Shown: piece after piece, positions 43,533 to 46,820 of the stretch
How the letters are laid out: the number at the start of each line of letters is the position of its first letter
How positions within the stretch are numbered: position 1 is the stretch's first letter
Origin: Tessaracoccus oleiagri
GTDB taxonomy: Bacteria > Actinomycetota > Actinomycetes > Propionibacteriales > Propionibacteriaceae
DNA: 64,000 bases
NCBI RefSeq assembly: GCF_900103275.1
Contig: NZ_FNGP01000001.1
Span: forward strand, 124,001-188,000
Direction: 5' to 3'
Notes under the pieces: generated by a model
The model's database searches: none
What the model saw: only the letters and a program-made list of their open reading frames with translations
Told to the model about the DNA's origin: nothing
Program-made: the position numbers and the translations under genes

Positions 43533-44552
43533 ATGAAGTATCGCTACGCAGGCAACTCCGGGTTCAAGATCTCCGAGATCACGTACGGCAACTGGCTGAC
43601 CCACGGGTCGCAGGTGGAGAACGATGTCGCGACGGCGTGCGTCCGCGCCGCGCTCGATGCCGGCATCACCAGCTTCGACACCGCCGACGTCTACGCGAAC
43701 ACCGTCGCGGAATCCGTCCTCGGCGAGGCGCTGAAGGGCGAGCGCCGCGAGTCGCTGGAGATCTTCACCAAGGTCTTCAACGCCATCGGCCCCAAGGGCC
43801 CGAACGACGTCGGTCTCTCCCGGAAGCACATCATGGAGGGCATCAACGGCTCGCTGCAGCGGCTCCAGACCGACTACGTCGACATCTACCAGGCCCACCG
43901 CTACGACTACGAGACCCCCCTCGAGGAGACGATGCAGGCGTTCGCCGACATCGTCCGTCAGGGCAAGGCGCTCTACATCGGCGTCAGCGAGTGGACGTCG
44001 GAGCAGCTTCGCGAGGCGCACCAGCTGGCCCGCCAGCTCGGCATCCAGCTCGTCACCAACCAGCCGCAGTACTCGGCGCTGTGGCGGGTCATCGAGGAGA
44101 AGATCGTCCCCACCTCCGAGGAACTGGGCATCTCCCAGATCGTGTTCTCCCCCGTCGCGCAGGGCGTGCTCACCGGCAAGTACAAGCCGGGCGAGCCGTA
44201 CCCCGAGGGCTCCCGCGCCACCGACTCCAAGGGCGGCGCCAGCATGATCAAGAACACGCTTGCCCAGGAGGAGACGCTCGTCGCGGTGCAGAAGCTGCAG
44301 CCCATCGCCGACGAGGCGGGCCTCAGCATGGTCCAGCTGTCGCTGGCGTGGGTCCTGCACAACCCCAACGTCGCCTCCGCCATCATCGGTGCCTCCCGCC
44401 CCGAGCAGGTGGCCGAGAATGTGAAGGCCATCGAGAAGCCGCTGAGCGACGACCTCTGGGACGCCGTCAACGAGACCCTCGCCGGCGTCGCGGTCACCGA
44501 CGCAGAGCGCACCTACCAGATGTCGCCGAAGCAGCGCCCCGGCACCAACTGA
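43533..44552 (+). CDS. Aldo/keto reductase (Kv-beta/YghZ-like)
   Basis: 339 residues. The catalytic tetrad is visible as Asp and Tyr in FDTADVYANT, Lys in IFTKVFN and His in YQAHRYDYETP. NADPH-binding C-terminal blocks are FSPVAQGVLTGKY and IIGASRPEQVAENV. It reduces aldehydes or ketones, by analogy to YghZ including methylglyoxal or glyceraldehyde-3-phosphate. Leaderless start at ATG 43533; a strong hairpin follows. Confidence 0.91.
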   Translation: MKYRYAGNSGFKISEITYGNWLTHGSQVENDVATACVRAALDAGITSFDTADVYANTVAESVLGEALKGERRESLEIFTKVFNAIGPKGPNDVGLSRKHIMEGINGSLQRLQTDYVDIYQAHRYDYETPLEETMQAFADIVRQGKALYIGVSEWTSEQLREAHQLARQLGIQLVTNQPQYSALWRVIEEKIVPTSEELGISQIVFSPVAQGVLTGKYKPGEPYPEGSRATDSKGGASMIKNTLAQEETLVAVQKLQPIADEAGLSMVQLSLAWVLHNPNVASAIIGASRPEQVAENVKAIEKPLSDDLWDAVNETLAGVAVTDAERTYQMSPKQRPGTN

Positions 44553-44560
44553 TCCAAACC

Positions 44561-44600
44561 CACTCGGCCGCGACGATCCACCGATCGCCGCGGCCGAGTG
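44561..44600 (+). terminator. Terminator after the aldo/keto reductase gene
   Basis: Perfect 12-bp stem CACTCGGCCGCG/CGCGGCCGAGTG with a 16-nt loop, followed by CCGTTT. It insulates the polycysteine-leader promoter downstream. Confidence 0.8.
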
Positions 44601-44617
44601 CCGTTTCCGAGACGACC

Positions 44618-44646
44618 TTGGCCGTCGATGGTTGAACACGTAACAT
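44618..44646 (+). promoter_or_regulatory. Promoter of the polycysteine leader and DUF4395-thioredoxin operon
   Basis: -35 TTGGCC (44618-44623), 17-bp spacer, -10 TAACAT (44641-44646), seven bases before ATG 44654. The spacing implies that transcription starts at the leader ATG. Confidence 0.78.
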
Positions 44647-44653
44647 TCTCGGC

Positions 44654-44725
44654 ATGACCCAGTACCGGCAGACCGCGACGAGCATCGTCGACGCGCGCCG
44701 GTGCTGTTGTTCGTGTTGTCGCTGA
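44654..44725 (+). CDS. Leaderless polycysteine attenuator peptide
   Basis: A 23-codon ORF, MTQYRQTATSIVDAR then RCCCSCCR and TGA: five cysteine codons within six positions just before the stop. It has no ribosome site and starts where a good promoter predicts the mRNA 5' end. Mycobacteria use leaderless polycysteine ORFs of this kind upstream of DUF4395/sulfurtransferase operons as cysteine-responsive attenuators: ribosome stalling at Cys codons when Cys-tRNA is low opens the downstream ribosome site. The following operon here is also DUF4395 plus thioredoxin. The 100-nt gap to that gene contains GAGGC/GCCTC (44747-44759) whose CCTCC could alternatively pair with the GAGGAG ribosome site at 44814. 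Confidence 0.82.
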   Translation: MTQYRQTATSIVDARRCCCSCCR

Positions 44726-44825
44726 GCGACGACCCCGAGAGCTGTCGAGGCCACGCCTCCGGCTCGCCACCGAACGTCCACGGGCGCACTGCGCCCCACC
44801 GTCGCCGCCTCCCGAGGAGACCACC

Positions 44826-45272
44826 ATGGCTGCCGCCACTTTCCAACCCATCGATCCCCGCGGCCCCCGTTTCGGCGCCGCAGTAACCGCCGTCCTGCTG
44901 GGCGTCGCACTCGTCCTCGGCCCGGCCGCTGGGCTCTGGCTGCTCGTCGTCCAGACCATCGCCTTCGCCGCCGGCGCCCTGCTCGGGCTGAAGTACCAGC
45001 CCTGGGGCTGGCTCTACGCCCGGTTCGTCCGCCCGCGCCTGCGTCCCCCCACCGACCTCGAGGACCCCCGCCCGCCGCGGTTCGCGCAGGCCGTCGGCCT
45101 GGGCTTCGCGGTTCTCGCCCTCGTCGGAGCGCTCGCCGGCGTCGCGTGGCTGTTCTACGTCGCCGTCGGGCTCGCCCTCGCGGCGGCGCTCCTCAACGCC
45201 GTCTTCGACTTCTGCCTCGGCTGCGAGCTCTACCTGCTCGGGCGGCGGCTGGGCGCGAAGGCAGCGGCATGA
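44826..45272 (+). CDS. DUF4395 family membrane protein
   Basis: 148 residues with four hydrophobic segments (about 18-35, 37-55, 88-108, 110-130). The DUF4395 signature is visible as FQPIDPRGPRFGAAV, DLEDPRPPRFAQAVGLGF and LLNAVFDFCLGCELYLL, with a conserved CLGC cysteine pair in the last helix. DUF4395 genes commonly sit with thioredoxins and sulfurtransferases, suggesting membrane thiol or sulfur-transfer chemistry; function is not established. GAGGAG lies six bases before the ATG. Its stop overlaps the thioredoxin start (ATGA). Confidence 0.88.
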   Translation: MAAATFQPIDPRGPRFGAAVTAVLLGVALVLGPAAGLWLLVVQTIAFAAGALLGLKYQPWGWLYARFVRPRLRPPTDLEDPRPPRFAQAVGLGFAVLALVGALAGVAWLFYVAVGLALAAALLNAVFDFCLGCELYLLGRRLGAKAAA

Positions 45273-45685
45273 CGGGGCTCTGGGTGCTGCTGGCCGTGGT
45301 CGCGCTGGTGGCGGCGTTCGGCGTCCACCGGACGCTCACCGACGGACGGGCGCGCGCCGTCGCCGCCCGGGACGCGACGGCGCCCTCACACTTCGGCCCG
45401 CACTTGGGCGAGCGGGCGACCTTCGTGCAGTTCTCGTCGGAGTTCTGCGCCCCCTGCAAGTCGGTGCGCCGGGTCCTCGGCGAGATCTCCGGAGCGGAAG
45501 AGGGCGTGGCGCACCTCGAGGTCGACGTGGCCGAGCGGCTCGACCTCGCCGACCTCTACGGCATCACCCGCACGCCCACCGTGCTGGTCGTCGACGGCGG
45601 CGGGCGGGTGCTGAGCCGGCTCGTCGGTGCCGTGCGCCCCGCGCAGGCGCGGGAGGCGCTCGCCTCGGTGGGCGTTCCCGGGTAG
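45269..45685 (+). CDS. Membrane-anchored thioredoxin-like protein
   Basis: 138 residues. An N-terminal helix (LWVLLAVVALVAAFGV) anchors a thioredoxin fold with active site CAPC (FSSEFCAPCKSVRRVL) and cis-Pro loop ITRTPTVLVVDGGG. It probably exchanges disulfides with the CLGC pair of the co-transcribed DUF4395 protein. Expression is expected to respond to cysteine supply through the upstream leader ORF. Confidence 0.9.
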   Translation: MTGLWVLLAVVALVAAFGVHRTLTDGRARAVAARDATAPSHFGPHLGERATFVQFSSEFCAPCKSVRRVLGEISGAEEGVAHLEVDVAERLDLADLYGITRTPTVLVVDGGGRVLSRLVGAVRPAQAREALASVGVPG

Positions 45686-45688
45686 GGA

Positions 45689-46159
45689 TCAGCCCACCTG
45701 GCCCCTGATCTCGCCGCCCGGATTGGCGACGGTGTGCACGTTGACATAGGCGTCACCGGACTCGATGAGCGCGACGAGGTCCTCCAGCGTCATCCCCGCG
45801 AGCGGACCGACGAGGTCCTCGTCGGTGATGGTGCCGGTGGCGAGGACGCCGTTCTGGGTGCCGCCGTCGGCCGACGGACCATGGAGCCACGCGACGAAGG
45901 GGCCATTCACACCCACCGCGCCGACGTGGATGTGCGCCATCGTCACGTCATCGATGTTGGAGGCGACCAGGCGGTACTTAAGCTCGGTGCCGTCGGCGGA
46001 GAGCTGCAGTACTGCCACGCCACGAGCGCGGGTGACGACGGGGTTCGCCTCGTTCGCCCCGCTGAGCTGGGCGGTGTAGGTGGTGACGGCGTGGGCGGGT
46101 CCGACGAGTCCGAGACTCAGCAGGACTGCCATGAGGGCAAGCAAGCGGAAACGTGTCAT
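45689..46159 (-). CDS. Secreted CHRD-domain protein
   Basis: 156 residues. A signal peptide (MTRFRLLALMAVLLSLGLVGPAHA, cleavage after Ala24) precedes one CHRD domain: TYTAQLSGANEANPV, MAHIHVGAVGVNGPFVAWLHG, DAYVNVHTVANPGGEIRGQV. CHRD proteins are extracellular beta-sandwiches of unclear function. ATG 46159 follows GGAGG at good distance. It ends three bases from the thioredoxin gene, which is convergent. Confidence 0.9.
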   Translation of the reverse strand: MTRFRLLALMAVLLSLGLVGPAHAVTTYTAQLSGANEANPVVTRARGVAVLQLSADGTELKYRLVASNIDDVTMAHIHVGAVGVNGPFVAWLHGPSADGGTQNGVLATGTITDEDLVGPLAGMTLEDLVALIESGDAYVNVHTVANPGGEIRGQVG

Positions 46160-46214
46160 TTCGGCCTCCAGGCTTCTTGGCCGGAGCCGGGCGGGTCCGC
46201 AGCCCCGGATTCTC

Positions 46215-46243
46215 ACGGTAAGTCGGGCCTCCGGGGCAGTCAA
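46215..46243 (-). promoter_or_regulatory. Promoter of the CHRD gene
   Basis: Minus strand: -35 TTGACT (46243-46238), 17-bp spacer, -10 TACCGT (46220-46215). Leader of about 50 nt with a GGAGG site. One of the closest matches to a consensus promoter in the window. Confidence 0.75.
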
Positions 46244-46310
46244 TGTGCCGAATCGCCAAGTTATCGCCCTTTGCCTGCGGATGACCCGAACAGTTGGTGA
46301 AGTAGTGCCC

Positions 46311-46820
46311 ATGAGAGACCCATACGCAGGCATCGATGGTGGCGCCGAGTTGAGCGTCACGAGCGAAGACTTCTCCGACGGCGGCAAGCTGCCGCTCGAG
46401 TCCACGGCCGAGTTCGTCGGCAACGGCGGCAAGGACGTGTCGCCCCAGCTGTCGTGGTCCGAGGTACCGGAGGGCACGAAGTCGATCTACCTCCACGTGT
46501 TCGACCCCGACGCCCCCACCCCCGCCGGCTGGTGGCATTGGTCGGTGATCAACCTGCCCTCGGACCTCCGCTCCCTCGAGCGGGGCGCCTCCACGGCGCT
46601 GCCCGACGGGGCGATCACGCTCCGGCACGACGGCGGCGGCCACGGTTACCTGGGCTCCGCACCGCCGGAGGGACACGGCCCGCACCGCTACTTCTTCACG
46701 GTGCACGCGCTCGACACCGTCCTGGACCTCGACGAGAACGCCACCGCGACGATGGCCGCCTTCTGCACCCGCGGACACGTGCTGGCCCGGGGCTACACCG
46801 TCGGCACCTGGGAAAACTGA
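46311..46820 (+). CDS. YbhB/YbcL family (PEBP-like) protein
   Basis: 169 residues. Phosphatidylethanolamine-binding-protein fold: GGKDVSPQLSWSEVPEGTKSI, VFDPDAPTPAGWWHWSVINLP, GPHRYFFTVHALD. Bacterial members are cytoplasmic, function unknown; they are called Raf-kinase-inhibitor-like by homology only. ATG 46311 is chosen; an in-frame ATG at 46281 would add ten residues. Eleven bases separate it from the PPK2 gene, so they probably form an operon. Confidence 0.87.
   Translation: MRDPYAGIDGGAELSVTSEDFSDGGKLPLESTAEFVGNGGKDVSPQLSWSEVPEGTKSIYLHVFDPDAPTPAGWWHWSVINLPSDLRSLERGASTALPDGAITLRHDGGGHGYLGSAPPEGHGPHRYFFTVHALDTVLDLDENATATMAAFCTRGHVLARGYTVGTWEN

Follow-up and report, generated by a model that had tools for sequence, protein, structure and literature searches.

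An open reading frame (ORF) of 23 codons that precedes a DUF4395 gene in the window, the 64,000-nt stretch of Tessaracoccus oleiagri DNA analyzed here, is highly likely to encode a cysteine-responsive leader peptide. Most likely, it represents a real but lineage-divergent cysteine leader of a regulator type known in mycobacteria and other actinobacteria. We observed the anatomy of such a leader, its class-wide recurrence before DUF4395 genes, an enrichment of Cys codons, and another leader elsewhere in this genome. Probable cysteine-sensing leaders of DUF4395 operons extend to lineages whose leaders are not named by the NCBIfam models, and the presumed sensor persists across changes in its peptide as well as in the genes it would control.

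A sequence-only reading of the window had described a promoter, a leaderless ORF, and a downstream DUF4395 gene with a thioredoxin-like partner. The hexamers, their spacing, the 23-codon ORF, the absent ribosome site, and the gap of 100 bases from the leader stop to the DUF4395 start codon at 44826 were all found again in the sequence, and profile searches assigned both genes as claimed (Table 1). The -35 and -10 elements are separated by 17 bp in the window and in its sister locus, L164, alike. No purine-rich ribosome site is present in the sequence 5' of the ORF, and the predicted peptide ends in CCCSCCR followed by the stop codon, with five Cys among the final seven residues. A simple promoter scan requiring 9 matches of 12 to the sigma-70 consensus reported no site at the leader promoter, because the hexamers match at four of six positions each and, with 8 of 12 in total, remain under the threshold. 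Support for the putative promoter is comparative, coming from a 23-base block shared with L164 and from the TAnnnT box that lies 6 to 8 nt before the start in 105 of 105 leaders, a set selected for 5 to 8 nt. Likewise, the predicted start of the leader has a -10 box 7 nt upstream, and this box is kept in the sister.

Table 1. Features of the leader locus in the window and the second leader of the same genome
Feature	Position	Strand	Basis and remarks
-35 element TTGGCC	44618..44623	+	sequence; 4/6 vs TTGACA; TTGGCG in sister L164
-10 element TAACAT	44641..44646	+	ends 7 nt 5' of ATG; identical in sister L164
Predicted leaderless Cys leader ORF, MTQYRQTATSIVDARRCCCSCCR	44654..44725	+	ATG at 44654, 23 codons, stop TGA
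Cys tract TGC TGT TGT TCG TGT TGT	44702..44719	+	5 Cys codons, 4 of them UGU
C-rich, G-poor intergenic stretch, candidate switch region	44726..44813	+	43 C and 25 G of 88
Shine-Dalgarno GAGGAG of DUF4395 gene	44814..44819	+	sequence and folding
DUF4395 gene (PF14340)	44826..45272	+	E 1.7e-41; 142 bits vs gathering cut-off 24.5
Thioredoxin-like gene (PF00085)	45269..45685	+	ATG at 45269; E 7.6e-9; CAPC motif, hydrophobic N terminus
Second leader, MKTTRVQDLVSRPHVDLARVASAMCLGN (L244)	contig C1:570241-570291	-	TAGCGT 7 nt before ATG; one Cys

To place the ORF in a wider context, we considered the DUF4395 genes of related genomes. A DUF4395 match was found in 57 of 147 genomes of the family, 176 of 245 of the order, 220 of 296 of the class, and nine of 39 of the genus. 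Part of these matches were fetched, and 80 further DUF4395 loci were taken from named contigs. Of the resulting 243 loci, 242 could be oriented and 220 were used for the leader count; the others were dropped because their upstream sequence was shorter than 330 bases, contained runs of N, or shared its last 200 bases with another locus. A leader was called where TAnnnT stood 5 to 8 nt before an ATG or GTG opening an ORF of 12 to 45 codons with at least two Cys in the last 14. Such leaders were found at 105 of the 220 loci. The controls gave one among the 220 reverse strands, nine among 4,400 dinucleotide-shuffled sequences, and two among 3,640 other stretches. The 105 loci are not independent: family f2 alone contributes 26 of them, whose peptides closely resemble one another. 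With at least three Cys, the count was 52 of 220 loci vs. no reverse strands, three shuffles, and two other stretches, and with at least four it was 30 of 220 vs. 0 of 220, 0 of 4,400, and 0 of 3,640, respectively. The distance from the box to the start, selected for 5 to 8 nt, was 7 nt in 58 leaders, 6 nt in 45, and 8 nt in 2. For 27 of the 115 loci that lack a direct leader, one was recovered with relaxed criteria or at a greater upstream distance, and in the remaining 88 of the 220 no leader was found even so; the chance controls given above apply to the strict criteria. As the recurrence far exceeds the strand, shuffle, and other-stretch controls, the leader before DUF4395 is not due to chance. 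That the window ORF is a fortuitous frame in GC-rich DNA is consistent with its short length and with its peptide matching no Pfam or NCBIfam model, but the complete lack of leaders with at least four Cys and a leaderless box among the controls makes the probability of this negligible.

Within the Propionibacteriaceae, where the sequence-only reading had proposed a search as a check of conservation, 22 of the 57 fetched loci (L001–L057) have a leader directly upstream of DUF4395 (21 by the strict count plus L006), and 5 more have one further upstream (L026, L036, L038, L044, and L050). No leader was detected in 27, and 3 loci (L045, L055, and L057) were left out of the count. The proposal that a nonmycobacterial actinobacterium has a leaderless poly-Cys ORF like those of mycobacteria, here heading DUF4395 and its thioredoxin-like partner, was supported, and the arrangement recurs in the family. 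In four of the loci with distant leaders (L036, L038, L044, and L050), the leader begins 663 to 730 nt upstream of DUF4395, indicating that it tracks the start of the operon; as read from the locus, L044 encodes a CAPC-containing thioredoxin-like protein between leader and DUF4395. No leader was found in the other eight DUF4395 genomes of the window's genus (L028, L034, L046, L104, L159, L161, L162, and L163). As a side observation, a thioredoxin-like gene precedes DUF4395 in two of these, L028 and L104, as read from the loci, and neither has a detectable leader.

The closest comparison is provided by the sister locus, whose DUF4395 is 88% identical to that of the window and whose leader, MRQNERVATMTLDARARRCACCR, is likewise 23 codons long. 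The two loci share an identical block of 23 bases that runs from GATGG to TTCT and includes the -10 element. Between start and stop, by comparison, 13 of 22 codons differ and 12 of the differences alter the residue; two of these 12 affect Cys codons of the window, leaving L164 with three Cys codons vs. five. The shared elements at the leader end are TGT, TGT-TGT, CGC, and TGA, retaining the C.CCR end. At the sequence level, the frame and the Cys-rich end are thus conserved between the two loci, while the remaining peptide drifts. This pattern bears on the idea that the ORF encodes a small trans-acting protein, such as a peptide that binds metals or thiols: its Cys-rich end, with five Cys among seven residues, and its probable translation would suit such a product, but the body is unconserved against an 88% identical sister, with 12 of 13 codon changes altering the residue, and the leaders of the family share little besides the Cys run. 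We consider a trans-acting peptide very unlikely. The sister locus comes from a metagenome contig, DOWQ01000463.1, labelled Streptomyces; this label looks wrong, Propionibacteriaceae being expected.

The window peptide matches no NCBIfam leader model at E values up to 10, and specifically fails NF042933 (the Ms5788A leader, cut-off 45 bits) and NF042934 (cis_reg_atten, cut-off 27 bits). The same was found for 10 other leaders of the window type (L006, L007, L010, L018, L019, L023, L031, L038, L164, and L165), none of which matches an NCBIfam leader model, and the leader of the family locus L051 matches three of them, each below its cut-off. A named leader is nevertheless found at the equivalent position. 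In mycobacterium-like genomes (f7; L137–L139), the leader VSARLEPMLTKRRAVDLCRVAGCCCCCCSC stands directly before DUF4395, and the peptide of L138 passes NF042933 with 56.3 bits (cut-off 45). The leaders of family f3, which we infer to be the Nocardioidaceae, resemble MFSTWLTKRRAVDHCRVRSSLCR and are present in 18 of the 19 f3 loci fetched; a peptide of this type scored 37 bits against NF042933, below the cut-off of 45. Given that the Ms5788A leader directly precedes DUF4395 in the mycobacterium-like genomes, the window ORF is its positional counterpart, and the two have in common the leaderless start, predicted in the window, and the C-terminal Cys run. Unlike the Ms5788A leader, however, the window peptide is without the LTKRRAVDLCRV body, and its operon continues with a thioredoxin-like gene in place of rhodanese and DUF1416. 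An ungapped alignment made by eye had placed an Asp at residue 13 in both the window peptide and the RR.VD leaders; the homology was dropped because a comparison of the profile with shuffles gave p 0.35. The window leader is probably a functional counterpart of the Ms5788A leader and not a sequence member of its group.

The same genome contains one match to NF042934 over the cut-off (E 3.4e-8). Three more matches, with E values from 0.07 to 5.5, are at the level of noise, as 10 of 14 control genomes likewise gave matches below the cut-off in this search. The strong match is the second leader, MKTTRVQDLVSRPHVDLARVASAMCLGN, a canonical leaderless leader that lies upstream of a sulfite/nitrite reductase gene (PF01077, PF03460). 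It belongs with the cis_reg_atten and Ms4527A leaders (NF042934 and NF042936), neither of which the window leader matches, and has one Cys where the window leader has five. Across the family, 14 of the 57 genomes searched have NF042934 matches at E 0.001 or less.

The Cys codons of the leaders show an unusual composition. UGU is decoded through wobble pairing by a single tRNA-Cys (GCA). In the 105 leaders, TGT and TGC are found at a ratio of 169:147, compared with 8:202 in the DUF4395 genes behind them, and for other twofold NNY codons of the leaders the T-ending form makes up 4 to 18%. The difference holds in a set of 47 dereplicated leaders, with TGT:TGC at 89:71 for Cys vs. 18:82 for other NNY codons (Fisher p 1.4e-9) and vs. 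5:87 for Cys in DUF4395 (p 2.5e-17). The UGU bias in the leaders is specific to Cys codons; the window leader has TGT at four of its five. We found no report of this bias in searches of an open-licence library, and it makes codon choice in the Cys sensor directly testable.

Very likely, the leader senses cysteine by ribosome stalling, by analogy with the mycobacterial systems from which both the stalling and the direction of the response are taken. RNA polymerase would start at or next to A44654, and ribosomes would initiate on the 5'-terminal AUG and translate the leader ORF during RNA synthesis. When charged tRNA-Cys is scarce, the ribosome would stall within the C-terminal tract (UGC-UGU-UGU-UCG-UGU-UGU), which adjoins the stop codon, and expression of the DUF4395-thioredoxin operon would rise; with ample cysteine, the ribosome would complete the leader and expression would remain low. 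Two ways of coupling the stall to the operon were weighed against the folding and the base composition of the region, and a third, the trp-type attenuator, lacks its intrinsic terminator: none was found between leader and gene, and the one terminator-like site in 44500–44900 is at 44686–44703, within the leader ORF.

The first is translational attenuation, in which the stalled ribosome prevents leader RNA from pairing with the ribosome-binding site (RBS) of DUF4395. Such unmasking of an RBS by a Cys leader was reportedly described for Mycobacterium smegmatis by Canestrari in 2020. PMC13236596 terms the mechanism translation attenuation, and in L138 and L139 the best duplex is that of the Cys tract with the RBS. 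For the window, the sequence-only reading had suggested that CCTCC at 44756–44760, between leader stop and DUF4395, could mask GAGGAG. This was not supported: the summed pairing probability is 0.0003 in free RNA and at most 0.016 with a ribosome placed on the leader, and CCTCC is not conserved in L164. On these two grounds the mask was rejected for the window. At every ribosome position modeled, the window RBS pairs locally with 44809–44812, and its accessibility is 0.57 whether the ribosome sits at the first Cys or at the stop. Folding was extended to 98 of the 105 leaders, the DUF4395 start being unassignable in L051, L052, L092, L096, L097, L103, and L105. Across the 98, stalling brought no gain in RBS accessibility (0.42 at the first Cys, 0.44 at the stop, and 0.40 in free RNA), the value at the first Cys being more than 0.1 higher in 8 leaders and lower in 21. 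This ribosome-position approach has low power, because the mycobacterial leaders are also inconsistent, with accessibility going up in L137 and down in L138 and L139. Duplexes between leader and RBS barely beat shuffled sequences (mean z -0.32, n = 98, three below -2), and we regard RBS unmasking in the window as doubtful.

Duplexes of the Cys tract with the intergenic region were similarly close to shuffles (mean z -0.31 in 64 RR.VD leaders and -0.02 in 34 others). The whole window leader folds somewhat better than its shuffles (z -2.33; 4 of 200), a signal that could not be assigned to a switch. Separately, we noted repeats of the Cys tract, GACAACACG, and GUGUUGUC in seven sequences of a related genus (L010, L012, L015, L019, L020, L021, and L033). 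GACAACACG lies just after the leader stop and GUGUUGUC before the RBS, and the two could pair with the Cys tract in a mutually exclusive manner as a possible attenuator switch; the pairing is visible in most of the seven and is clearest in L019, L020, L021, and L033. This alternative pairing was not found in the window.

The second way is Rho-dependent transcription attenuation of the tna type: a ribosome on the Cys tract would hide a C-rich Rho loading site, and with ample cysteine Rho would terminate the transcript ahead of DUF4395. The C-rich intergenic RNA behind the Cys tract fits such a model. The stretch from leader stop to RBS is C-rich and G-poor, with C minus G averaging +0.150 in the 98 leaders and +0.20 in the window, compared with +0.004 upstream of the leader promoters and +0.086 in the 115 loci with no direct leader (p 7e-6). 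In addition, the Cys run abuts the stop codon, and no terminator-like site lies between the leader ORF and the DUF4395 gene. C-richness is a weak predictor, however, and is partly present without a leader. Seliverstov 2005 (PMC1262725) proposes Rho for the Cys leaders of Propionibacterium acnes, mycobacteria, and Bifidobacterium longum, while grading its own prediction as rather weak. We consider Rho-dependent attenuation a realistic possibility, if somewhat short of probable.

Cys leaders, whichever switch they would act through, have precedents. PMC9031893 and PMC13236596 describe experiments on mycobacterial Cys leaders, and Shell 2015 (PMC4633059) leaderless Cys ORFs in mycobacteria. The leaders in Seliverstov 2005 belong to cys operons in Mycobacterium and P. 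acnes and to cbs in B. longum; they resemble the window leader as short ORFs with a Cys run near the stop and no conserved terminator hairpin, and set a propionibacterial precedent, but for other operons. According to PMC8632094, the uORFC-8-2 motif of cysS in Rhodobacterales similarly has tandem Cys codons in an upstream ORF as the presumed sensor, but differs by its intrinsic terminator, dominance of UGC, and occurrence in alphaproteobacteria. By its title, Lyubetsky 2014 (Comput Biol Chem 49:7-13, cited in PMC4833913) ties the regulation of PF14340 genes, the same family as DUF4395, to sulfur metabolism, and would thus deduce a part in sulfur biology from regulation, as we do here. To judge from this title, a link between Cys leaders and DUF4395 seems to be already in print. 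Otherwise, little literature was found on DUF4395 in the library searched, with two papers for the name and two for the Pfam accession.

The genes behind the leader differ among lineages. In f2, f3, and f7, the majority of loci with a leader have ORFs after DUF4395 that begin like rhodanese and DUF1416 (PF07210), and a rhodanese-like fragment of L097 matches PF00581. In 11 family loci (L007, L010, L012, L013, L019–L024, and L027), the second ORF after DUF4395 begins like cysK. The first ORF has a thioredoxin-type CxPC in 7 of these 11, the other 4 having been taken in a different frame by a crude script. The cysK of L168 (Propionicicella superfundia) was confirmed by TIGR01139 with 417.5 bits. 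In the window and in L164, the thioredoxin-like gene stands alone after DUF4395. The DUF4395 stop and the thioredoxin-like start overlap as ATGA in the window, where the operon ends with the latter gene, the next gene-like long ORF (45689–46477) being on the opposite strand. The window's thioredoxin-like protein matches five NCBIfam models, all under the curated cut-off. Its DUF4395 protein is modeled with six helices at high confidence, for which no informative fold match was found, and has a CLGC near the C terminus that is invariant across 44 aligned sequences.

Taken jointly, these observations allow a more speculative reading, on the unlikely side as a whole. The DUF4395 leader of the Propionibacteriaceae may have become a pure codon sensor that has lost the LTKRRAVDLCRV body and is left with the C-terminal Cys run, mostly of rare UGU codons that would heighten stalling. 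This sensor would have been kept while the operon behind it exchanged rhodanese-DUF1416 for thioredoxin, in some cases joined by cysK. DUF4395, which carries the invariant CLGC, would act as a thiol protein in the membrane and supply whichever partner is present with sulfur in reduced or sulfane form, as thiosulfate or persulfide. We met no report of such rewiring behind the leader in our literature searches, and the exchange of one partner set (rhodanese-DUF1416) for the other (thioredoxin-cysK) under a single cysteine sensor points to a role of DUF4395 in sulfur supply that can be tested. Finally, the DUF4395 genes of L008 and L009, which have no leader, are preceded by an AT-rich promoter region in which an imperfect palindrome might serve as a repressor site in place of a leader.
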